NCBI GenBank assembly: GCA_016748015.1
Contig: JAAOMT010000523.1
Span: 1,413,595 to 1,477,594, forward strand
Origin: Geosiphon pyriformis
Lineage: Eukaryota; Glomeromycota; Glomeromycetes; Archaeosporales; Geosiphonaceae
Direction: 5' to 3'
Length of the DNA: 64,000 nt
The notes beneath the pieces were generated by a model. That model saw only the letters and a program-made list of their open reading frames with translations, did not search any database and was not told the DNA's origin. The translations under genes were made by a program, and so were the position numbers. Shown here piece after piece: positions 3,305-60,988 of the stretch (its first letter is position 1; each line of letters opens with the position of its first letter).

Positions 3305-4610
3305 ATGGATGTCGAAATGCAAGACGCGTTCAGTATTTTGGTTGATGATTATGATGATGAAATTGTTGATTATGAGGTTTGTACTTGATAAGAAAGTTTG
3401 AAATTTTTTATATTATTCTTATTTCATGTTGACCTCTTACAAATATCAAGGACGATGATGAAGTAATGATTGAAGATAATTTAGAAAAATTTGAAAAAGT
3501 TTCCGATGCTTGTTTCATTAAAGAAACGGATACCGTTAAATGTTTCAATAATGAGTCGAAATCTACTATTCGTGAATATACATTAAGCTTCAGAGATAAG
3601 CAATTAGATGATGCTGAAACCAAGAGGCTGATGGATAATTTTCAAAAGAGGAATTGGGTGAATCAACAGAATATTGGTGATCTAAACCATTTCAATAAAA
3701 ACTTTGGTACCAAAGTTCAAAACTCTTTAAAAGAAACAGGCAAGTTGATGTTTTACTTTGAAGGTTTTTGTATATTCGGTCTTTTGTTCAGTTCAATTTT
3801 AAATGTGACCATTCTAATATAACTTTTAAAACTTAAAGGTATTAAGGAAAAAGATTTGCCAAAAATTTTTTCACCATATACAAGGAATTGAACCAGAATA
3901 ATTTCTTCGGGTCTAGATGGTTTCAAAAAGTCGAATTCTCAATACATTCCCAAAGATAACTGCTCCATTTTTCAACGGTTGGGTTTCATCATGAAGGATG
4001 GGAAAATCCAAAATTTCAATAGTGAAAATCTCCAAATTGATAACAGAACAATCTCCTGGCGGCTTAAAAAGGTTGAGGTTAACGAAAAGAATTCTGCAGA
4101 TGACTTGTCAGCTAGTAATGAAATTTTTTGATTTTTTATAGTTTTGCCTTTTATCAATGGTATAGATAGAATTGCTTAAAATTTATCCTTAATTTAATAG
4201 CTAATAAAACAGAATCTTTGAATGGTACAGCAAAATTGCCTATTATAGAAGCCGAGAAGCCACAGGTTTGGGAACGGCTTTGAATTAGTGCATGTATTTC
4301 TTTAATTCGGGAATATACTAAAAACAGTTTTTCATCTAATGATCAGCTTAGATTCGCTGTCAATTATAAAGATAAAAATCATTCATTTTTCATAAAACAT
4401 GAGATCACTTTAAAAGATTTTGTCGAATACATTCAGGAAAAGTTTCAATCTAAACATATTTTTGCACCTTTTAAATATATATCATTCAACCAACGAATCG
4501 TTTACGTTGAAAAAGAGACTGATTGGTTGATTTGCAAGCGAGTTGCCTTGGCCATGAACAACCTATGTTACACCATGGAGCTCTATATACGGGAATATAT
4601 TTTTTATTAA
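3305..4610 (+). pseudogene. PB1-domain-like protein gene with two in-frame TGA codons
   Basis: Four exons can be joined: 3305-3376, 3451-3739, 3839-4114 and 4201-4610. Their lengths sum to 349 codons in one frame. Intron 2 has a GC donor (GCAAGT at 3740) and a normal AG acceptor. The N-terminus is very acidic (repeated Asp/Glu) and the middle is not recognised. The last ~90 residues resemble a PB1 domain: a beta-rich start (LRFAVNYKDK), a middle helix, then a segment reading YVEKETDWLICKRVA, where PB1 domains have the acidic loop and last helix. TGA at 3889-3891 and 4281-4283 interrupts the frame; both could come from CGA by one C-to-T change. PB1 domains mediate pairing of signalling proteins. 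It is probably a recent pseudogene; the alternative is extra introns not recognised here. Confidence 0.5.
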
Positions 4611-5289: not shown

Positions 5290-6540
5290 TCACTCAGATA
5301 CTTTAAAAAGTACTCTCAACTTTTTATCAGAATGTTTATCGTCCTCTCCAATGGTCATTGCTTTCCGAAACCATCGAAGAGCCATGTGAATATCCCTCGG
5401 CATTCCGAAACCATTAACAAAACATGCGGCAACGTTCGTAAATAAAACTGGTAAATTATCATCTTTAATCAATGCAGAACACCATGTCCAATAATAAGCT
5501 TTATTCAAGTCTTTTCTGGTTCCGATTCCCTTGTAATAAAAATGGCTTAACAAATTCATTCCAATTCTATTTCCAGCATTGGCTGATCTCGTACAATAAT
5601 CAAATGCCAATTGAATATTAAGGGGGACAAATATTCCTTCCTTGTAACATTTTGACAATCGTGCCATAGCAAGAGGGTTCCCGTTTTCAGCAGATTTCTC
5701 ATACCATTTCAATGCCTCTTGTTCATTTCTCGTTACGTATCTGCCCCAGAAGAAGAATTCCCCATATTGAGCTTGGGCTTCGGGTTCATCGTTTTCAGCA
5801 GCTAGTTTATACCATTTAAAAGATTCTTTGTCATCTTTGATGCCGGTGTATCCTTTTTGATACCAATCTCCTAAAAGTCGTTGTGCTCTTGAAAAATTTT
5901 GACTTGCTGATTTCTCAAACCAGTAATGAGCCAATTTATGGTTCATTATTGTTCCTGTACCGTTTAAATACATTTCAGCCAGTTTACATTGTGCTGCAGC
6001 ATTACCCTTTAGGGCCATTCTTTCATAAATTTCATGAGCTTTTTCAGAATCTTGGTCAATTCCAATTCCATTATCATAACAGATTGCTAATTGTTCATAC
6101 GCTAAAGGATCATATACATGATTCTCCAAGGCAAATCTGAACCAATAAAAGGCTTTTTGTTCGGATACTTTTGTTCCAAAGCCAACTTTGTGCAATATTC
6201 CAAGGATAAATGAATACTTTGGTAAATGTTGTAGGTTATCTACTATTTGAAAGAATTCATTTTCTGAAATATTTTCAGTTGAAATGTATTTTTTCAAGAA
6301 GTCAACGATAACGTTTAGGTCTTTAGATTCATTTTTTGGACAAGCAAAAAAGGACGATAATAAATTTAATTTTTTTTCAATTCGTGAAGAGGATGATGAG
6401 GAAGGAAAGAAGTTTGAGTTTGAGTTGGAAGTGGTAATGATGATGGGATTTCTCTCTCCATTTTTCTTTATGCGAAAAATTTTTGATTTTAGATAGGCGA
6501 ATGGTATTTTTAATCGTTTAAAACGTCTTAAATGGTTCAT
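5290..6540 (-). CDS. Sel1-repeat protein (416 aa)
   Basis: Single-exon gene. After a basic N-terminus and a Ser-rich linker (about residues 40-55), residues ~110-400 hold around eight Sel1-like (SLR) repeats of 36-38 residues. They carry the usual signature: a helix ending in A..LG..Y..G.G, then A..W..KAA..G (for example YLNGTGTIMNHKLAHYWFEK). Sel1 repeats are TPR-like alpha-solenoids that serve as adaptors in protein complexes; many stand-alone SLR proteins are known from Rhizophagus. No signal peptide, membrane segment or kinase domain is visible, so it is probably cytosolic. Its partners cannot be told from sequence. Two other Sel1 genes on the same strand (28447-29265 and 39361-40518) look like paralogues. 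The ATG at 6540 is the most upstream in frame. Confidence 0.88.
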   Translation of the reverse strand: MNHLRRFKRLKIPFAYLKSKIFRIKKNGERNPIIITTSNSNSNFFPSSSSSSRIEKKLNLLSSFFACPKNESKDLNVIVDFLKKYISTENISENEFFQIVDNLQHLPKYSFILGILHKVGFGTKVSEQKAFYWFRFALENHVYDPLAYEQLAICYDNGIGIDQDSEKAHEIYERMALKGNAAAQCKLAEMYLNGTGTIMNHKLAHYWFEKSASQNFSRAQRLLGDWYQKGYTGIKDDKESFKWYKLAAENDEPEAQAQYGEFFFWGRYVTRNEQEALKWYEKSAENGNPLAMARLSKCYKEGIFVPLNIQLAFDYCTRSANAGNRIGMNLLSHFYYKGIGTRKDLNKAYYWTWCSALIKDDNLPVLFTNVAACFVNGFGMPRDIHMALRWFRKAMTIGEDDKHSDKKLRVLFKVSE

Positions 6541-6545
6541 GATCG

Positions 6546-6581
<36 letters not shown>

Positions 6582-6619
6582 TTGTTGTTATTGTTGTTGT
6601 TGTTATTGTTGTTGTTGTG
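6546..6619. repeat. (ATT)n/(GTT)n microsatellite
   Basis: Trinucleotide repeat only six bases upstream of the start codon of the Sel1 gene read on the minus strand, so it probably lies in the 5' untranslated region or core promoter. The ATT part changes into GTT. A second (ATT)n tract lies at 6857-6878. Confidence 0.85.
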
Positions 6620-9600
6620 ATTAAAAGTTAGGCAAAAGAGAAATCAACTCTAAATTCGAGGGGTAATATTGAAAAATATTAAAAATAGATAATTGAGATT
6701 TTGTCTAACATTCTTTTTTTTCTTCTATAAAGAAAATTCCAAAATCCGGAATTTCGGAGGATAATAAAAAAGTAAAATTGAATTTCTTTCATGCAAACAA
6801 TTTTTTTTGTGTTTAAACAAATAATATATATTATAATTTATTCATTTTAAAACGTTTATTATTATTATTATTATTATTTTAAAAAAAAAACTTTTACAAG
6901 ATAATTTTGTATTTTTCTTTTCTCTTTTTTTTTTGTAACCCATTGCCATCTATCTGAATTCTTTTGAATTGATTGCACATTTTTTCTCTTAACATGTTAA
7001 TGAATTTTTCTCATAAAACAAAATAAAAATAGTAAATATTATTGAAATTGGGATTTAATATCATAATTAGAAATACTTTTTTTTTCCATTATTAGATAAA
7101 TTTTTAGCTGAGGAATAACCCAAGTATCATATAATCTTGATCATTATTACCAATCGGCAAAGATAATAGGATATTTCGTCAAGATTTTTTAGCATGACTC
7201 AAAAAATTCTTTCCTCTTGTTTTAACAAACACAAGATTCACTTGGAGTTTATTTGAAAAAAAGTTTTTAAAATTATAAACCGCAGGAAAAAGTACAAGAA
7301 ATCAATTAATCAGAAAGAATAAAAATGTTAAAAATCAAATACGTAAAAAATGAACTACACAAAATAAATTGAAACACTAAAAAAAATTTCAAATTATTTT
7401 TTATTTAATAATTGTACACCAAAAAAAAAGATTTATTTTAATTATTTAGATTTCAAAGTAAATTATTTTAATTTATTTTGCGTTACCTTTCTTTTGAAAA
7501 AGGTATAAATGCCAATTGTTTCTCAATCCATTTTGTATAAGGAGTATCACCATCATATTACAACTTTGGCTTCAGAATGAGCTGATCATACATTTAACTA
7601 GTACATGTGTAATAAATTTATAAAATTCTAAATTCCTCGTATTCATTTAATATATAAAAAGGGATATTTGAAAAGACAAGTTGCTGCGTGTAAACGTAAT
7701 TTTGTGTTAGAAGAAATGATAGTTTACTTTTGAATAAAAATGAGTTATGAAAAAAACTTGGACAGTATATGGAATAATATTGAAATTGATTTCATTTTTT
7801 CTCTCAATGTAAATTTTTTAATTCCTTGTTTTGGGTAAACTAAGAGGAACCCAATATTTATGCCCTTTACTATATATCTAGTTGAAACAATGAAAGATAT
7901 ATTCAATCAATCGCTCGGCCTTCATTTAAATTTAAAGCAAAAATACAATTCACAATTTAATTCAGAGAAAATTTCGGACATGTAGTTAATAGTAAATTTG
8001 TTGTCAACAAAAAAAAATTATATTAGATTGCTTTAGTCGATCCAAGATATGCTTTATTGAATGCCGAACTGAGATTTTAGAGTGACCTATGAAAAGTAAT
8101 ATGAGCTCTTGGATTTATTTATTGAAAATGAGAACTAAGAAGTCAGAAATTCAAGTCTTAAAAGGAATTCGAAGCTATTAATATACATAAAATTTTTATC
8201 GATGAACAATAATTTTTTTATTTAATATGTTAATCTGGGAAACTTGAGATATTAAAAGCTACAACTTATTATTTTGTAAATGTACTTTAAAAAATAAAAA
8301 ATTAATGTATCGGATAATAACCAAAAAGAGTTCTTTCAAATGGTAAATTTATTCAAAAAATTTTAAAGAATAAATTCGAACCATTTTGTGCCATATTAAA
8401 AAATAAAATAAAATAAAATAAAATAAAAAAGTGAATCATATTATGAAAAGAATAAACTTAACTAAAATTATCCATCATAATAATAGCAATAAGTTTTTAA
8501 TCTTATCACAAATACAGAATGTTATTTTATTTATTTATTTATTTAATAAAAAGAACAAAAAACTTGGTTGAGCTATTACATAATTATTTTTAGTTTAATA
8601 ATTTAGATAATATGAATAATTTTAAAAAATTCTTTGCCACCAAAAAAATTAATTGAATGATGAACTTTTATGAGATCATTGTTCAAATGTAAATAAATGT
8701 TTCATTTAAACTACTCTTATTCACCCCTCCATCTAAGACTAAACTTTTTATATTTTAAAATGTGAATTGTTAATATTTTTATTCTACAATATAGTTTCTA
8801 TAATTAAATATTTAATTTTATAAATTAATTATAATATATATATATATTAGCTTTTTACTTTATTCTCAACATATGATACAATATTATTTGGTTATTATAA
8901 TATAATTTTCATTATTAAAGATTATTAAAATATGGGAAAATTTTTTCGAATTTAGTTTTTTCGTTAGAATCTAAACTTAGACTCTTACACTATCTTTAAA
9001 CTTCAAACAAGCTTAAGTTTAGTATATGAACTAAGAAAATCTGTTACAACTATCGCAAAAGTGTTATTCAAATATCCCTTAAACAAAAATACACACACAA
9101 AATTAACTTTAAAAGCCTCTTATTTTACATATATAGGAAAAATGATGAATCAAACAAACAAACAAACAAACAAACAATTGAACATATTTGCGGATTTTAA
9201 TTGTTTTCGGTTAGATTGAAACTTTTGGGCGCTATTGTTCCCAATTTCACAATCATTTTTTTTTGGGAATTGTATGAGTAATGATGATAATAGTGAAAAC
9301 TTTGAGAATTTTAAATTAAAATAATAAAGTTCTTTGTAACAATACATAATCCCTTTATATCCTGATATGTATTATAAAATATTCATGTCTTCATATTGGC
9401 CTGACTAATTATAGGATTAGAAGATTTTGAAAATTTTGATATTGTAAATTTTTAAATAAATTTAATTAATTATTTTGCAAATTAGCTTTTTGTTATCAAT
9501 AACAAAAAAAGCAAAATCAAAAAATTTAATATAAAGGACAACAATTGAAATTTTTTTTTTGTCATTTAGAGATATTATCCATCTATTTAGATGTCATCAT

Positions 9601-23282: not shown

Positions 23283-24531
<1,249 letters not shown>

Positions 24532-24995
24532 TCCGAAGTCAAAATATCACAAAAACTAGAAATATCTTCGAAAAATGAAATCTTTTCACACAACTCATAT
24601 TTCCTTCTTTATATCAAATATCATGATAGCACGGAATTTCCTCGCGTGTGAGAATTAAAGTTTACTCATTTATGAACAGACCCAGGAGTACAGTACGCGT
24701 TCATTATACGGTGTAAAATTTTTGCAGTAATGCTTAACTTCCCATGTTTCGTGATATGCACAGGTTGCTTTAATTCGAATTTCCTTGAATAGAAGATCAA
24801 CATTGAATCAAATGTGATCATCAATTAATAATGTAAGGAAATTCGAAAGGAACGAAGGGGTGGTTACGGATTGACTTGGAAACGCCCGAAAAAAGCTAAA
24901 AGTATATATATTAATAAATTATTTTATCAATTTATATGAAACTTGAAATTTAGAATCATATGATAATAAATTAAAAATCCTTTTATACATTAACA
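24532..24995. other. Intergenic spacer
   Basis: Upstream region of the poly-Ser gene and downstream region of the reductase gene. No other signal seen. Confidence 0.6.
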
Positions 24996-28446: not shown

Positions 28447-29265
28447 CTACTTCTTCGAACCCTTCCCTTTAAAGATAGAATGTAAATGTCGTTTTGTGAT
28501 GGAATCCAGCTTATTTGATGTCTTTCTATGCCAATAAATTGCCTGATGCAAATCCGACATAGTTCCCATGCCCTGTCGACAAAATATAGCCAACATAGCA
28601 GGGGCATATTTATTTCCACCTATAGCAGCATTTTCATATAATCTTAAGGCAACCTTACAATTCTTTTTACAATACGCACGCCCTTGAGTATAACTAAACC
28701 CTAATTGAAATCTTGCTTCCGAATTTCCTTGCTTAGCTGCTTCATTATACCAATAATCCGCTTTCGAGAAGTTTTTTTCTGTTCCCATACCCTTTGAAAA
28801 ACAATTTCCCAATGCTAATTGAGCAGGAGCAAAACCTTTTTTCGCAGCTTCTTCAAATCGTTCAAATGCAAGTGATTCTAATTCTTTCGAGATCCCAATC
28901 CCACGTGCATAACATTCTGCAACGCAAAATGTCCCAACCGGATTTCCTCTATACATTGCATAAACAAAGAGATCGAATGCTTGTTTCGAACTTTGTGGTG
29001 TACCCGTCGCATACAAATGACAAAATGCAAGGATGAGAACATTATTCGTAGAGATATCGGCCAATGCATTGCTAAAATATTGAAAGATATCAGGCTTTTT
29101 CAGGTTTTTTGTACGCAGGAATTTTCTAAAAGCGTGTTTAAATTTTAGGAAGCCGTTATTTTTTGCCAATGTTGTCATGAGGCAATCCCATGCTTCTTTG
29201 CTGACACTGAGGCTAGATGAGGTAGATGTCATTTGAGGAAAAAAAAGATATTTGAATTTTGTCAA
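28447..29265 (-). CDS. Sel1-repeat protein (about 260-272 aa)
   Basis: Single exon. After about 85 residues of unrecognised helical sequence there are about five Sel1-like repeats (for example CYARGIGISKELESLAFERF and CFSKGMGTEKNFSKADYWYN), which run almost to the C-terminus. Sel1 repeats form adaptor solenoids; no signal peptide or enzyme domain is present. The ATG at 29232 (MTSTSSS) may be the real start because the eleven residues before it look untranslated, but the frame is open to 29265. It is a likely paralogue of the genes at 5290 and 39361. The 3' end of a Tc1-like element lies about 330 bp upstream. Confidence 0.85.
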   Translation of the reverse strand: MTKFKYLFFPQMTSTSSSLSVSKEAWDCLMTTLAKNNGFLKFKHAFRKFLRTKNLKKPDIFQYFSNALADISTNNVLILAFCHLYATGTPQSSKQAFDLFVYAMYRGNPVGTFCVAECYARGIGISKELESLAFERFEEAAKKGFAPAQLALGNCFSKGMGTEKNFSKADYWYNEAAKQGNSEARFQLGFSYTQGRAYCKKNCKVALRLYENAAIGGNKYAPAMLAIFCRQGMGTMSDLHQAIYWHRKTSNKLDSITKRHLHSIFKGKGSKK

Positions 29266-29596
29266 AATTTTAAATTGATGGTAAAAGAGAAGAGATTTGA
29301 AAAAATTGAACTTGTTTGCTACCTTAAAGTGAGATCTTTAAAACCGGGATAAAATAACACACTAACAGATCTTAAAAATATTTGTTTATTGACGTTTCGA
29401 AATTTGGTAAACTCCTTTTCAAGACTACGGAGCTAATAACTGAAAATCACTCTCAGTTTAATCTAAATATTACGACAGTGAATCGTAGCTATTTTAAATT
29501 TGATCGAATCATACATTGAAAAGAAAAAATTTTCCGTTGAATGCCAAATTTATTCGCTCAATCAATCAATAAATGAGAATTTGCAGGTATTACACA
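29266..29596. other. Promoter-side spacer of the Sel1 gene
   Basis: Spacer between the Sel1 start and the Tc1-like element. No motif could be assigned. Confidence 0.5.
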
Positions 29597-30925
29597 CAGG
29601 GGGGTATATAATATGTTATATAAAAGAATTAACTTATGAATCGTTAATTTTTTATTATTATATTAAAATAAATGTTAGTATTTTGTTTGACCCCCATTTG
29701 CTTCAAGAATAGCTTGAACTCGACGTGGCATAGACTTGATCAAATTACGATAGTAATTTACAGGTATCCCATCCCATTCTTCCTTAACCCACTGTTCCAA
29801 TTGTACAATATTTGAGTGTTGTGAATTACGTTGACGAATTTTAACTTCAATATATGACCAAAGATTTTCTATTGGAGTAATATCAGGACTTTGTGCTGGC
29901 CAAGGAAGTAATTCAACATTTGAAGAGGTAAGAAAAGAACGCGCGACTTTTGATGTGTGGATTGGTGCATTGTCTTCCTGAAAAAAAAACTTTTTTTAGC
30001 TTTTTTTGCATGAAGTTTTACCGTAGGAATTGCATAATTAGCCAAGGTTTCGCGGTGTATAACTCCAGTAATATGACCAACCAAAGAAACTAAAGGACCC
30101 AAACCAACCCATGAAAAACATCCCCAAAACATGCGACCAAAGCTTTTTCTAACTGTGGCTGCAATACAATCCTTATGAAACTCTTCGGAAGGTTTACGCC
30201 ATACACGTCCAAATCCTGTAGTTCTAAATTGTGTATATGTAGATTCATCTGACCAAAAAACTCGTTTAAAATCTTCTACTGTCCAATTTTCATAAGTACG
30301 AGCCCATTGTAAACGTTTTTCTTTATTTGATTTGGAAATTAATAGCTTGAGACGAGGAATACACGAGCGAAGTCCTTGAGCTAATCCATTTCGAATAGTT
30401 TGTATAGAAATAGATTTGTTGGTATCTTTAATAAAATTTAATCGTATTTGAGAAAGAGATTGGCGGCGGGTTTCTTTATTCTCCATTATTGAATATTTGA
30501 GTTGTTCACGTGCGCGTTTGTCAAGAATTTGTGGTCGGCCCGTTCGTTTTTTAGGAAGTTTTTTTTAGCTCGTATGACTTCCATACACGTATTACAGAAG
30601 AACGTGAACATCTAATAGTCGTGGAAATCTCACTGTTTGTATGTCCTAACTTTTTTGCTGAAATAATCCCTCCTTTTTGGTATTCAGAAAGTTCTTTTCC
30701 AAGACATATTTGATGCGGTAAATTTTTTCACAAGAATGTTTGATATTTTATATATACACATATGATTCACTGTTGTGTTTTACAAGGACGCGATTTATGT
30801 TAATTTGTAGATTATAACTATAAGTAATTATAAAAAAAATTATGGCTTAAATTGGTAATGGTATTACAATATATAGCCTTTTTTATATATTATATTAAGT
30901 GTCCAATACTTTTTATACCCCCCTG
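29597..30925 (-). mobile_element. Tc1/mariner-type DNA transposon with terminal inverted repeats
   Basis: The ends match each other as inverted repeats: CAGGGGGGTATATAAT at 29597 and, read on the other strand from 30925, CAGGGGGGTATAAAAA. At least 13 bases match. The dinucleotide outside the right end is TA, as expected for a Tc1 target duplication; outside the left end it is CA, one transition away. The 1.33-kb length and a single transposase gene are typical. The transposase is frameshifted, so the copy is not autonomous at present. Confidence 0.82.
29675..30722 (-). pseudogene. Tc1-like transposase, nearly complete with two frameshifts
   Basis: Reading down the minus strand one sees the N-terminal helix-turn-helix part (GKELSEYQKGGIISAKKLG, then RCSRSSVIRVWKSYE), a frameshift in an A-run near 30560, KRTGRPQILDKRAREQL, the first catalytic Asp in VFWSDES, the second in QEDNAPIHTSKVARSF after another frameshift in a nine-base homopolymer at 29981-29989, the third acidic residue in SPDITPIENLW, and the C-terminus LEANGGQTKY before the stop at 29675. 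All three DDE positions are present. The normal start codon seems lost (TTACCG where an ATG would be expected). The few lesions, all in or near homopolymers, suggest a young copy or partly sequencing error. Confidence 0.8.
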
Positions 30926-33963: not shown

Positions 33964-33998
33964 ATTAACTAATAATTTTTTTAAAACTTATCTTTGAA

Positions 33999-34745
33999 AT
34001 GCCGACTTCAAAGCAAGAAACGCAACGGCAAGTCGTATTACATTTTTGGAAGCAAGGAATACGAAAGGCGAAAGAAATACAGAATAAAACGAATATACCC
34101 CTTTCTACAATCTATAATATCCTCGAAAAACTCAAAAAAAAAAGAACAATAAAGCATACAACTGGTAATGGTTGGCCAAGAAAGATTATGGGAAATTTTT
34201 CGAAAGTATTAGTGCAGATTATTCGTAGAGATTCCTCAGTTTCGTCTAGATATTTAGCAATAAAGTTGGCTAAGAAGGGAATAAATATTTCTCATGTTAC
34301 TATTCAAAACCATTTATCCAATCTTAATTATAATAAAAGTCTTCCTAGAGCAACTCCAATGCTGACCAAAGAGCATAAGCGAAAACGTGTAGAATGGGCC
34401 AAAAAACACCGGAACGACGATTGGAAAAGAACAGTTTTTACTGACGAAACATCTTTTCAACTTTTTCAAAACACGGTAAAACGTTGGCATAAAGGTACTC
34501 GACCAATTCGTCCTATGCCTAAAGATCAAACAAAAATTCTCGCATGGGAAGGGGGGGGGGGGGTTTCTACGAAAAAGGAAAGACTAGTTTATTCTGTTTT
34601 GTTCAAATAATGAATGCTAATTTTATATAGATATTCTTTGTAACCAATTACCTGAAATTAGAGCAATGCTGGGGGATAATTGGCGATTCTAACTAGCAAG
34701 CTTGCCAAAGAATTTATTGGTGGGGTGGCCATCTAATAGTCCCGA
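33999..34745 (+). pseudogene. Tc1-like transposase, truncated and frameshifted
   Basis: The frame 33999-34610 gives 203 residues: a helix-turn-helix start (QRQVVLHFWKQGIRKAKEIQ), a second DNA-binding helix, KEHKRKRVEWAKKH, and the first catalytic Asp in FTDETSFQLFQ. A run of G at 34552-34562 shifts the frame. Beyond it, coding traces go on (YIDILCNQLPEIRAMLGDNW, then TSKLAKEFIGG), but the second Asp motif is damaged or deleted. The start codon lies only 33 bp after the Harbinger-like element, which has probably displaced this copy's left end. It differs from the transposase at 29675, so it is another Tc1 subfamily. Confidence 0.75.
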
Positions 34746-39360: not shown

Positions 39361-40518
39361 TTAATTAATTAAACCACCTATTTCCCAATAACCATCAAAT
39401 TCACCTTTTTTAAAAGCGCTCAGGAAGCATCTAAAAGAATAATGAAGATCTCGTGTAAAAGTCCAGTCTTTGATTCCGGAATATATTCTTCCCAATGTCA
39501 TTAAACTTTCCCCATTTCCTCCAGCGGCAGACTTTTTATACCAATAGAAAGCTTTCATCAAATCTCGCTTGCAACCTTTTCCGAATTCATAAGATTCTCC
39601 TAATTTATTTTGCCCATCAACGTCATCATTTAAAGCTGATTTCAGATACCAGTAATGAGCCATTTCTTTATTTTGCTCAATCCCAATTCCTCGACTGTAA
39701 CAATAGGCAAGATTATATTGACCACATTCATCACCAGCCTGAGCTCCCATTTGATACCAATAAACAGCCAGGGAATTATCTTCTAGGACGCCAGTGCCGT
39801 CTTGATAACAGCATCCTACTGAATTGTAAGCCATACTATTTCCAGCTCGTAGAGATTTTTTAAACCAATAAAATGCCGTTTCATAATTTACTTCAACTCC
39901 AGTTCCGGCATGATAACAATGTCCCAGATTATATTGACCAGTGGTGAATCCTTGTAGGGCACTCTCGGTAAACCAATAAACGGCCAATTTTAAATCTTGT
40001 TTTATCCCTGTCCCATCTCGATAACATCTACCGAGAAAGTTTTGACTATAGGCATCACCTTCGTTTGCTAATATCGTATAATATTCAAATGCTTTTTGAA
40101 AATTTTTTTCGGTCCCAATTTCATATTCATAACAGAAGCCAACCAAGTTTAATAATTTTGGTGTTTGTTTTGCTTGTTGATGCAACTCTGCGAAGAATTC
40201 TGGGAGTTGAATCTGCATATTTCGATCATTGATCCATTGAATTATTTTTGGTGGTAGTTTTGGAAGATAGGTTCCTTGTTCAATCCAATTAAAAAATAAT
40301 TTAGAAACATCTTCTATCAGAACAGTATTAGGATCAAGTTTGGAGCTCATTTTTGAACCATCTTTAGTTGGAGCAAGGTAAGATTGATGGTAAGAAACTG
40401 GAGTCAAAATTTTTCGTTCCATATCTTGATTATTAGGGGTAGCCGTGTTTGGGATTGGAATCAATTGGTTTTTGGATGAAATAATCGGAACAGGCTCTCC
40501 TAAATCATTTGGGTCCAT
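39361..40518 (-). CDS. Sel1-repeat protein (385 aa)
   Basis: Single exon from the ATG at 40518. The first ~110 residues are not repetitive (Pro/Thr/Asn-rich, then helical). Residues ~115-370 hold about seven regular Sel1-like repeats such as CYRDGTGIKQDLKLAVYWFT and CYSRGIGIEQNKEMAHYWYL. The repeats are better conserved than in the gene at 5290. The protein is a predicted alpha-solenoid adaptor in the cytosol. In Rhizophagus-type genomes such proteins often match the C-terminal part of kinase-Sel1 fusions, and this window has one such fusion at 58517. The partner is not known. Confidence 0.88.
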   Translation of the reverse strand: MDPNDLGEPVPIISSKNQLIPIPNTATPNNQDMERKILTPVSYHQSYLAPTKDGSKMSSKLDPNTVLIEDVSKLFFNWIEQGTYLPKLPPKIIQWINDRNMQIQLPEFFAELHQQAKQTPKLLNLVGFCYEYEIGTEKNFQKAFEYYTILANEGDAYSQNFLGRCYRDGTGIKQDLKLAVYWFTESALQGFTTGQYNLGHCYHAGTGVEVNYETAFYWFKKSLRAGNSMAYNSVGCCYQDGTGVLEDNSLAVYWYQMGAQAGDECGQYNLAYCYSRGIGIEQNKEMAHYWYLKSALNDDVDGQNKLGESYEFGKGCKRDLMKAFYWYKKSAAGGNGESLMTLGRIYSGIKDWTFTRDLHYSFRCFLSAFKKGEFDGYWEIGGLIN

Positions 40519-40783
40519 TTTTCATTTTTTGATAAGTCATTAAAAATTAGGGAATGAAAAGAGTGTTAATATATTTTCCTATTGTTTGTTGTGCAATTAT
40601 ATCATCACAGTATGCTGATCAGTAAATGCAGAGATGGTCTATATTGAAGCTTAAAAAATTTTAATTTTCAAAGGTCCAAATGATATACCATTATTTAATC
40701 TGATTAGTAAATTAAAAAACGAATAAAATTTGTATTCTAAAGGGTTGCAAACACTTTTGATTTTTTTTATCAACAACAACATC

Positions 40784-58516: not shown

Positions 58517-60988
58517 ATGCCGAAGCAGCACATTCCCCGAAAAGCGTCTCAATCAATTGACGGATATTTGACGCCACCTGTGGATGAAAAGAATCCCATA
58601 TTTTCACAAATGCTTGATATCACTGGAACTACAGTTGTTACCATAGATGCTACTGTCAGCACGGCAGGAAACTTTATGGGAGTAATGTCAGCTGTTGGCA
58701 GTGCTGCTGGTCAAGTTGGAGCGATGGCAACCTTCGCTACCTTTGTTCCTTTAATTTCAGATGTTTTAAGATTGGTCGAAGGAATGGTACAACTTTACCA
58801 ACAAGCCGAACACAATAAACGTATATGTGGTGTACTATTGGATCGTGTATTCGCAGCCGAAGCAGCCGTGAAAAATTTGCAAGTTCGAAAAAATGAACAC
58901 ATGGATTTTTTCAAAAATAACGAAAACTATCGAATTTTTCAGAATTTTCGAAATAATATTGAGAAAATAAAACGATTTATAGAAGACATTTCACAGATTA
59001 AAGGGTTGCGCAAATTCACTCAAGGATATTTACAAGCTAATGCCATTAAGAAAACTTTCAAAGAACTTACAAAAGAGTTTGATGGCTATATGCAAACGTT
59101 GCAATTTACAATCACTATCGAGATTCATGCACAACAACAGAAAGATGGTGAGGTTTTGGATCAAGATATCAACGAATTAAAGCAAGTAAGTACTCTACGT
59201 ATCATGCTAGATTAAACATTTTTTATTATTAGTGATGAATGATTAATAGTTACTTCTCTTAGTACCTGAGCGATATAGAAGGTGGAATTACGGATATACG
59301 CGGAGATATTTCTCTTGCTATTGAGAGGATTGATCTTTTGGCTAGGTTGTTCCTTAAACAACCTCCAGAGCTGTCGAGTTCGTCATCACTCCCAATCTCC
59401 ACTGATCAACCTCTTGAAATCTCCGCCTTTACACCTCCAGAAAGTCAAAAGGGTAAAGTACAGAAACGTATCAGGAAGGCGGATTATGAAGAGGCTGCTT
59501 TCAAAGAGCTTACTTTAGAAACGTTACCCCATGATATTTACACCCAAGTCACAATTCTCAAGAAACTGCAAGATTCTAAAAATATAATCAGATTTTATGG
59601 TCTGGCAAAAGAAAATGAGAAATTATATTTGGTTACGGAATGGGCTGAGCACCGAAGTTTGAAAGAATATTATACAAATTATTCGAACCTTTACGATTGG
59701 AGAAAGAAAATTGAGTTTGCCCTTGACATTTGTCGTGGTTTGAGCTTTCTGCAAGCGGTTAACATCCTTCATCATGATATTCGAAGCGAAAATGTACTCG
59801 TCCTTCAAACCGGGAAGGCAAAAATCGCTAATTTTGGGTTATCACGTGGGTTCAGTCAGGCCACGAAAAATATTGCAGCAAATGTTGAGAATGTTCGTTA
59901 TATGGCTCCTGAAAAAATAATTGATCGTAGATATCGTTATGATTGCAAATGTGAAATTTATAGGTTTGTTATTTTTAGCTCAAGTCTTTTTGTTATTGTT
60001 GTTGTTGTTGTTGAACAAGAAATTGAACATGGACAAATTTATTCCTTTCATATTTTTACAGTTTTGGAATGCTTTTATGGGAGATTTATGAAAAGAAAAT
60101 TCCATATAGTAATATTCTTAATGACATAGTGAAAATTCGGGAAATCGTGGTAAATAAGAAAATGCGTGAAACTTGGACATCCCCAAATACTCCGTCCGAA
60201 TACAAGAAGGTTTATAATCAGGGTAAGATTTTTGTGAAAAATCTTTTTGAAATTTTCAATGATCAACTTTAACCTAATTTTCCCATTGTGAAATAGCTGT
60301 CCATGATGATCCCAGTCTGCGACCATCCATTTCAGATATTTTCAAAATGTTAGTTCCTCTTTGGAAAAACGTTCAGCCACCCCCATCACCGAGAATGGTT
60401 CCATTAAGGAATAATTCTCAATTTTCTGAATCAGAAAAAGGTGATAGTGATAATGAAGGCGATAGTGATGAAGATTGTAGCATTGAACCCCCAAGGATAC
60501 CTCTACAAGAAGCAATTAGGGAACACAAAAAGAAGGATGGAGATAAAAAGAAAGCATGGGATGCTTTTCAATATTATAAAAATATTGGAGATATTCAAGC
60601 GAAATATTGGGTTGGTTACTACCTTTACTATGACATTCTCAAATTTCCTGAAACAGAGTATAGTAAAGAAGAACGTCTTCAAGAGTCAGCTAAACTTTTC
60701 AAAGAAAGTGCCGATGAATGTGGGATGCAGGAAGCTCAACTTCGGTATGGTTATTGTTTATGGCATGGTCACGGGGTTGAGAAAGATATACCTGAGGCAA
60801 TTAATTACTTTGAAAGGTCAGCTGATAATGGAAATGCTACGGCTATGTATAATGTTGGAAATGTTTATTACAACGGAATAGGGGTTGAACCTGATATTCA
60901 AAAAGGGGAACAATATTTAATCATGGGTGCTTATAATGGACAACCGAAAGCGAGAGAAATGTGCGATGAGAAGGGAATCAAATTGTGA
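58517..60988 (+). CDS. MLKL-like four-helix domain + degenerate kinase + Sel1 repeats (about 740 aa)
   Basis: Exons 58517-59185, 59263-59963, 60062-60222 and 60297-60988. Residues ~55-250 form a helical N-terminal domain (FVPLISDVLRLVEGMVQLYQ, then CGVLLDRVFAAEAAVKNL) like the four-helix bundle of MLKL and the fungal HeLo-type proteins, which insert in membranes to kill the cell. Residues ~290-545 are a tyrosine-kinase-like domain: Lys ~304 in EAAFKEL, catalytic loop HHDIRSEN (Asp ~395), APE and YSFGMLLWEIYEKKIPY. The glycine loop is absent and DFG reads NFG (Asn ~413), so catalysis is doubtful, as in MLKL. A Pro/Ser/Asp-rich linker leads to about three Sel1 repeats (~600-740), e.g. CLWHGHGVEKDIPEAINYFE. 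A role in signalled membrane damage or immunity-like death is an inference. Confidence 0.85.

Follow-up and report, generated by a model that had tools for sequence, protein, structure and literature searches.

A gene on the plus strand of a 64,000-nucleotide stretch of DNA from Geosiphon pyriformis (the window) raises the question of whether a fungus can encode an MLKL-type protein, that is, one in which a four-helix bundle (4HB) effector, a pseudokinase latch and a Sel1 docking part together bring about death by permeabilising a membrane. The answer is of different strength for the parts of this question. From its sequence, the 4HB-pseudokinase-Sel1 architecture is near certain. For the full reading of an intact gene for a fungal protein that works in the MLKL manner, the chances appear evenly balanced, and the death-effector function itself is plausible at about even strength. 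The architecture suggests, but does not prove, that the fungus has its own necroptosis-like switch.

Spliced alignment of 58517-60988 (+) gives an intact four-exon gene of 740 aa that is open throughout (Table 1), and the coordinates proposed for it in a first-pass annotation of the window proved correct, with the three introns recovered identically by the spliced aligner whichever of three paralogues was used for the fit. Intron 1 has a counterpart at the same point in the models of C250, C399, C303 (142 and 21.9 kb), C203 and C402 (72.7 kb), where the C-numbers denote loci of the same genome (124.7 Mb, 406 contigs). MLKL_N, kinase and Sel1 occur together in seven of the eight other gene models at E<=0.01, and an artefact of fused neighbouring genes was rejected because this identical domain set recurs. 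The window is low in GC. At the C250 locus (L016), a kinase intron (~3405 in reverse-strand numbering of the locus) appears to require a GC-AG rather than a GT-AG donor.

Table 1. Features of the gene at 58517-60988 and further Sel1-repeat frames in the window (window positions).
Feature	Position	Strand	Extent and content	Basis
Further Sel1-repeat frame	5290-6627	-		
Further Sel1-repeat frame	28447-29337	-		
Further Sel1-repeat frame	39361-40521	-		
Exon 1	58517-59185	+	aa 1-223; N-terminal segment and 4HB region	open frame; intron call from three paralogues
Charge-free Gly/Ala/Ser/Thr-rich segment	58649-58759	+	37 residues, aa 45-81; precedes and overlaps helix 1	
4HB core, MLKL_N type	58706-59131	+	aa 64-205	PF22215 match aa 82-205; relatives' profiles match MLKL 4HB in PDB
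Intron 1	59186-59262	+	77 bp, GT-AG; separates 4HB from brace-like segment	paralogue fits
Exon 2	59263-59963	+		paralogue fits
Brace-like linker	59263-59361	+	starts IEGGIT	co-linear with MLKL
Kinase-like domain (predicted pseudokinase)	59449-60346	+	aa 286-527, split by introns 2 and 3	Pfam PF00069/PF07714
HHD replacing HRD	59770-59778	+	catalytic Asp kept	sequence, A3 alignment
NFG replacing DFG	59830-59838	+		A3 alignment of 9 members
Intron 2	59964-60061	+	98 bp	paralogue fits
Exon 3	60062-60222	+		paralogue fits
Intron 3	60223-60296	+	74 bp	paralogue fits
Exon 4	60297-60988	+	kinase domain end, acidic linker, Sel1 tail, stop included	
Sel1 repeats	60608-60970	+	about three by eye, two pass Pfam alone	PF08238, E 1.1e-17

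The N-terminal domain had been annotated as helical and possibly of the MLKL/HeLo kind. In Pfam, MLKL_N matches exon 1 alone at E 8.8e-4 (19.2 bits, under the curated cut-off of 27) and the spliced protein at E 0.0062, and a phmmer search of the PDB with exon 1 alone returned nothing useful, the best match (E 0.054) being centromere protein Q and not MLKL. Used as a query against its own genome, the window N-terminus matches 12 places, itself included and some of them two exons of one copy. The MLKL_N profile independently finds seven places, four of them over the curated cut-off and including relatives at C250 and C219; C250, which the window N-terminus also matches directly (E 8.6e-28), lies above that cut-off. 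When a profile of 10 relatives (A1) was compared with 177635 PDB sequences, the first seven were all MLKL (E 8.9e-13 to 3.7e-9). Because A1 includes members fetched with MLKL_N, the search was repeated with the seven members gathered by the window sequence without MLKL_N, and MLKL again took the first six PDB places (E 4.2e-4 to 9e-3), with mouse MLKL 4btf at E 0.15.

Nine of the 10 A1 members match MLKL_N at E<=0.1, and other Pfam families appear in at most two members each. Among the eight other gene models that were scanned, seven carry MLKL_N at E<=0.01 (four over the cut-off), the C399 member giving no match at that threshold. A search with the 4HB of C284 recovers itself and C234 but no member of the window's group, and C284 and C107 are therefore joined to this group only by MLKL_N and the alignment. 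Neither HeLo (PF14479) nor PigL_N (PF17111) has a match in the genome at E<=0.1, and both, together with RPW8, are absent from the Pfam list of the window protein at E<=1. A single-sequence predicted model (mean pLDDT 48.5) was too poor for comparison with the PDB or RPW8 to inform. The sequence profiles thus support an MLKL-type 4HB within residues 1-223, and of the annotated claim the MLKL part stands while strict Pfam HeLo does not.

The charge-free segment around the start of helix 1 is a candidate membrane-active segment. A run of this length arises in 0.135% of shuffles of aa 1-223, for a feature picked after being seen, and none of six relatives has a charge-free run as long, their maxima being 11 to 26. 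By Kyte-Doolittle hydropathy the N-terminal maximum of the window protein is not a significant peak (p 0.39); the lowest p among seven proteins is 0.018 (C219), uncorrected for seven tests.

The IEGGIT that opens the brace-like linker recurs in close paralogues with minor variation (I-E/R/D-GGI-T/A), as read from the models. A profile that spans 4HB, linker and kinase in five members (A4) ranks human MLKL first (E 1.4e-43) and mouse MLKL second (E 4.9e-39) in the PDB, among the best 60 of 942 matches at E<=1e-20, and its positions 27-461 correspond to 15-469 of the human chain, a full-length co-linear match. The window protein thus shares with animal MLKL (human 6lk5, mouse 4btf) the order 4HB, brace-like linker, pseudokinase and the loss or change of catalytic motifs. 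It differs in its Sel1 tail, where MLKL ends after the pseudokinase, in the HHD and NFx of its family in place of the MLKL variants, and in its charge-free Gly/Ala/Ser-rich N-terminal segment. The MLKL-like architecture with an added Sel1 part, as first annotated, is borne out by the A1, seven-member and A4 sequence profiles and by the Pfam scan of the other gene models.

Sel1 in the window protein scores 64.2 bits in Pfam against a curated cut-off of 30.7, and the C-terminal solenoid that had been annotated is present but short, with two Pfam-passing repeats. Seven of the eight other models have Sel1 at E<=0.01 (five over the cut-off), and the eighth, C399, was supplied without its tail; at positions 3683-4378 of that locus (L017), a Glu/Gln-rich, loosely repetitive frame occupies the place where others carry Sel1. 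A regular expression for Sel1 found nothing near 30 control kinases, and this control was discarded because the same expression matched just two of 12 family regions, though at least eight carry Sel1 by Pfam. The genome is rich in both kinases and Sel1 (597 and 1991 first-look candidates, respectively). At least 15 clusters of Sel1 are located no more than 3 kb 5' of a same-strand PF07714 kinase match (by eye, among the matches listed), and in such loci, e.g. C138:650930-654796 (-) and C393:351886-355327 (+), Sel1 comes before the kinase, the order opposite to that of the 4HB family. Because these clusters sit 5' of kinase matches in the same genome, Sel1-array kinases are possible partners of the window protein. 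None of the three further Sel1 frames of the window matches a kinase by itself at E<=0.001.

By analogy with MLKL we infer a course that would run from autoinhibition and a trigger through oligomerisation and membrane attack to death. The N-terminal 4HB would be the effector, the pseudokinase behind its helical brace a regulatory latch, and the C-terminal Sel1 repeats a docking site for a partner. At rest, the 4HB would be held by the pseudokinase and brace. It would be released when a partner binds Sel1 and/or the activation loop of the pseudokinase is phosphorylated by any of the numerous active kinases that the genome encodes, and once released it would oligomerise and permeabilise a membrane, after which the hyphal compartment would be killed or sealed off.

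In related superfamilies, 4HB-like N-termini can serve as adaptors instead of killing. The window protein may accordingly be a signalling scaffold, in which the 4HB is an interaction or oligomerisation module, the pseudokinase and Sel1 bring in partners, and membranes are left whole. Such a role would suit Sel1 repeats together with a kinase fold that has been kept, and it is also favoured by the weak PUB10_N matches in two of the 10 A1 members, by the lack of a significant hydropathy peak in the window protein and by C234, where a 4HB accompanies an HRD/DFG kinase that looks intact. However, no other family is matched nearly as often as MLKL_N, the MLKL matches are co-linear over their full length and a charge-free segment lies ahead of helix 1, and we consider the scaffold a possible but somewhat doubtful explanation.

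Whether the latch of an MLKL-type effector would be catalytically dead depends on the kinase half, which matches PK_Tyr_Ser-Thr at E 7.5e-40 on the spliced protein (Pfam). At the positions that we take to be GxGxxG, beta-3 Lys, alpha-C Glu, HRD and DFG, the window kinase has no GxGxxG before AAFK, keeps the beta-3 Lys and has Gln for the alpha-C Glu, in addition to HHD and NFG. The annotation of NFG for DFG without a glycine loop is upheld: the Asn and Phe of NFx align in all nine members of the A3 alignment while the third position varies, although in C399, whose DFG region reads GCGVNF, the NF aligns only via a four-residue gap and GCG stands there without it. HHD is found in eight of the nine, with HKY in C284. 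The alpha-C Glu is replaced in five (the window, C399, C303_142k, C303_21k and C203), and the beta-3 Lys in C399 (Thr) and C303_21k (Glu). All 28 readable control kinases have Asp at both the HRD and DFG places and none has NF (read by eye), in a sample that is biased to canonical kinases because it consists of the best-scoring 30 of 146 matches, two of which could not be read by motif search. NFG may not be exclusive to the family, since HRD and NFG also occur in kinase-like frames that lie immediately upstream of the 77 kb copy at C303. The HHDIR DNA pattern was rejected as a genome-wide signal, being uninformative because its reversed control gives 94 matches against 28.

The degraded catalytic motifs support a predicted pseudokinase. 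Ser or Thr occupies one activation-loop column in eight of the nine aligned members, which makes this column a possible phospho-switch. Pseudokinases were reportedly the subject of a study by Kwon et al. in 2019. The window kinase could instead be atypical but active, with the Asn of NFG still allowing weak phosphotransfer, since HHD retains the catalytic Asp and the window protein its beta-3 Lys; the Asp of HHD is present in eight of nine members, and the Asn is conserved and not randomly decayed. The missing glycine loop of the window protein and the replacements of the alpha-C Glu and beta-3 Lys in some members speak against this, and we hold it to be improbable.

The ancestry of the predicted pseudokinase is a separate matter from its resemblance to MLKL. 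In a PDB search with the kinase-only A3 profile, CTR1 (157.2 bits), BRAF (156.9) and TNNI3K (149.1) all score above MLKL (146.2), and the kinase half is therefore, as judged from these scores, TKL-type and not specifically MLKL. JAK and EGFR chains come out above these only through the adding up of two kinase domains, their best single domains reaching 101.9 and 83.0 bits. In a first tree, a branch (100/98) separates the nine members from 26 other sampled kinases and from the 4HB-bearing C234 kinase. A second tree, built without RIPK sequences and without C284, which was left out because of its very long branch, recovers an eight-member clade (99/98) that groups with five of the eight sampled kinases of the fungus and with C234, not with MLKL, at 90/92, below the tool's star. 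Constraining the clade to join MLKL worsens the tree by 4.5 log units (p-AU 0.203), which does not reject a joint origin. Independent assembly of the MLKL architecture is thus favoured by the grouping with the fungus's own kinases, but not shown.

A broader proposal is that the window protein belongs to a lineage-specific clade of 4HB-pseudokinase-Sel1 executioners with conserved NFx, which would have been built independently of animal MLKL from the expanded kinases of the fungus, would be switched by Sel1-array kinases of the same genome, and would kill or seal off hyphal compartments in a coenocyte in allorecognition, defence or endobacterial control. We offer this as a speculation that is unlikely to hold in full. 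If the 4HB is lytic, it would place MLKL-like latch death in a fungus from a lineage in which allorecognition and defence are still little understood.

At C234:118000-126000 (L025), one open frame holds both an MLKL_N match (38.3 bits) and the beginning of a kinase that has a glycine loop, and the next frame carries HRD and DFG. The genome thus also contains a 4HB joined to a kinase that looks intact. Comparing this locus with the dead-kinase clade would allow a test of how such latches evolve, and of whether the MLKL architecture has arisen repeatedly.

Three close open copies (C303_142k, C303_21k and C203) are under purifying selection, with dN/dS of 0.40-0.45 overall, 0.33-0.63 in the 4HB and 0.36-0.49 in the kinase, by simple Nei-Gojobori estimates on the three pairs of these fully open copies, the window copy not being among them. 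Other copies are broken, namely C402 72.7 kb (three stops), C303 77 kb (a stop) and C303 28 kb (two stops), and for the C402 65 kb copy the fit covered the later part alone. That the window gene is likewise a decaying paralogue without function is very unlikely, for in spite of these broken relatives it is fully open over four exons with introns that agree between queries, and selection is purifying in the close open copies, a test outside which the window copy itself lies. Four family copies at C303 (21.9, 28.9, 77 and 142 kb) lie within ~121 kb, all on the minus strand and two with stops, and the 77 kb copy (C303:71500-79500, L022) is interrupted by transposase-like frames (by eye).

Part of this family has probably been described before. 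The relevant part of a survey of early-diverging fungi reports homologues of the MLKL family (TCDB 1.A.105) with Sel1 and no clear function, found within that survey 'exclusively in Glomeromycotina' (PMC8778642), and these are probably the same family as the window protein. Relative to that part of the paper, the 4HB test, the catalytic-residue analysis and the phylogeny come from the present analysis; Glomeromycotina MLKL homologues with Sel1 are already in print, and the addition here is a conserved NFx predicted pseudokinase with an MLKL-type 4HB. In a limited literature search, we recognised no paper on the 4HB, catalytic residues or phylogeny of the MLKL-Sel1 family.

Elsewhere in the fungi, 4HB homologues are known, and HELL domains occur in kinase or pseudokinase proteins according to a figure legend (PMC12881547), while basidiomycete MLKL_NTD-like domains are described as carrying an extra N-terminal helix (PMC9815663). 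As far as the cited parts of these papers go, the window protein shares the 4HB superfamily with fungal HeLo/HELL and basidiomycete BaMLKL (PMC9815663, PMC12881547, PMC10197012) and, with BaMLKL, an N-terminal extension ahead of MLKL helix 1. Unlike fungal HeLo/HELL proteins, it has no NLR part, its genome has no PF14479 match at the threshold given above, and Sel1 apparently stands in place of an amyloid motif. The plant MLKL-like protein Pm13 has the same order of MLKL_NTD, brace and kinase (PMC10951266), but it keeps its kinase residues, and no Sel1 tail is mentioned in the part of that paper cited here. PMC10234402 appears to be related literature alongside PMC10197012 and PMC10951266.

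Elsewhere in the window, two frames, 29869-30564 (-) and 33969-34610 (+), carry a Tc3-type transposase helix-turn-helix (PF01498), and 23863-24546 (-) contains a very long serine run, with poly-His in another frame, that comes from a simple repeat.
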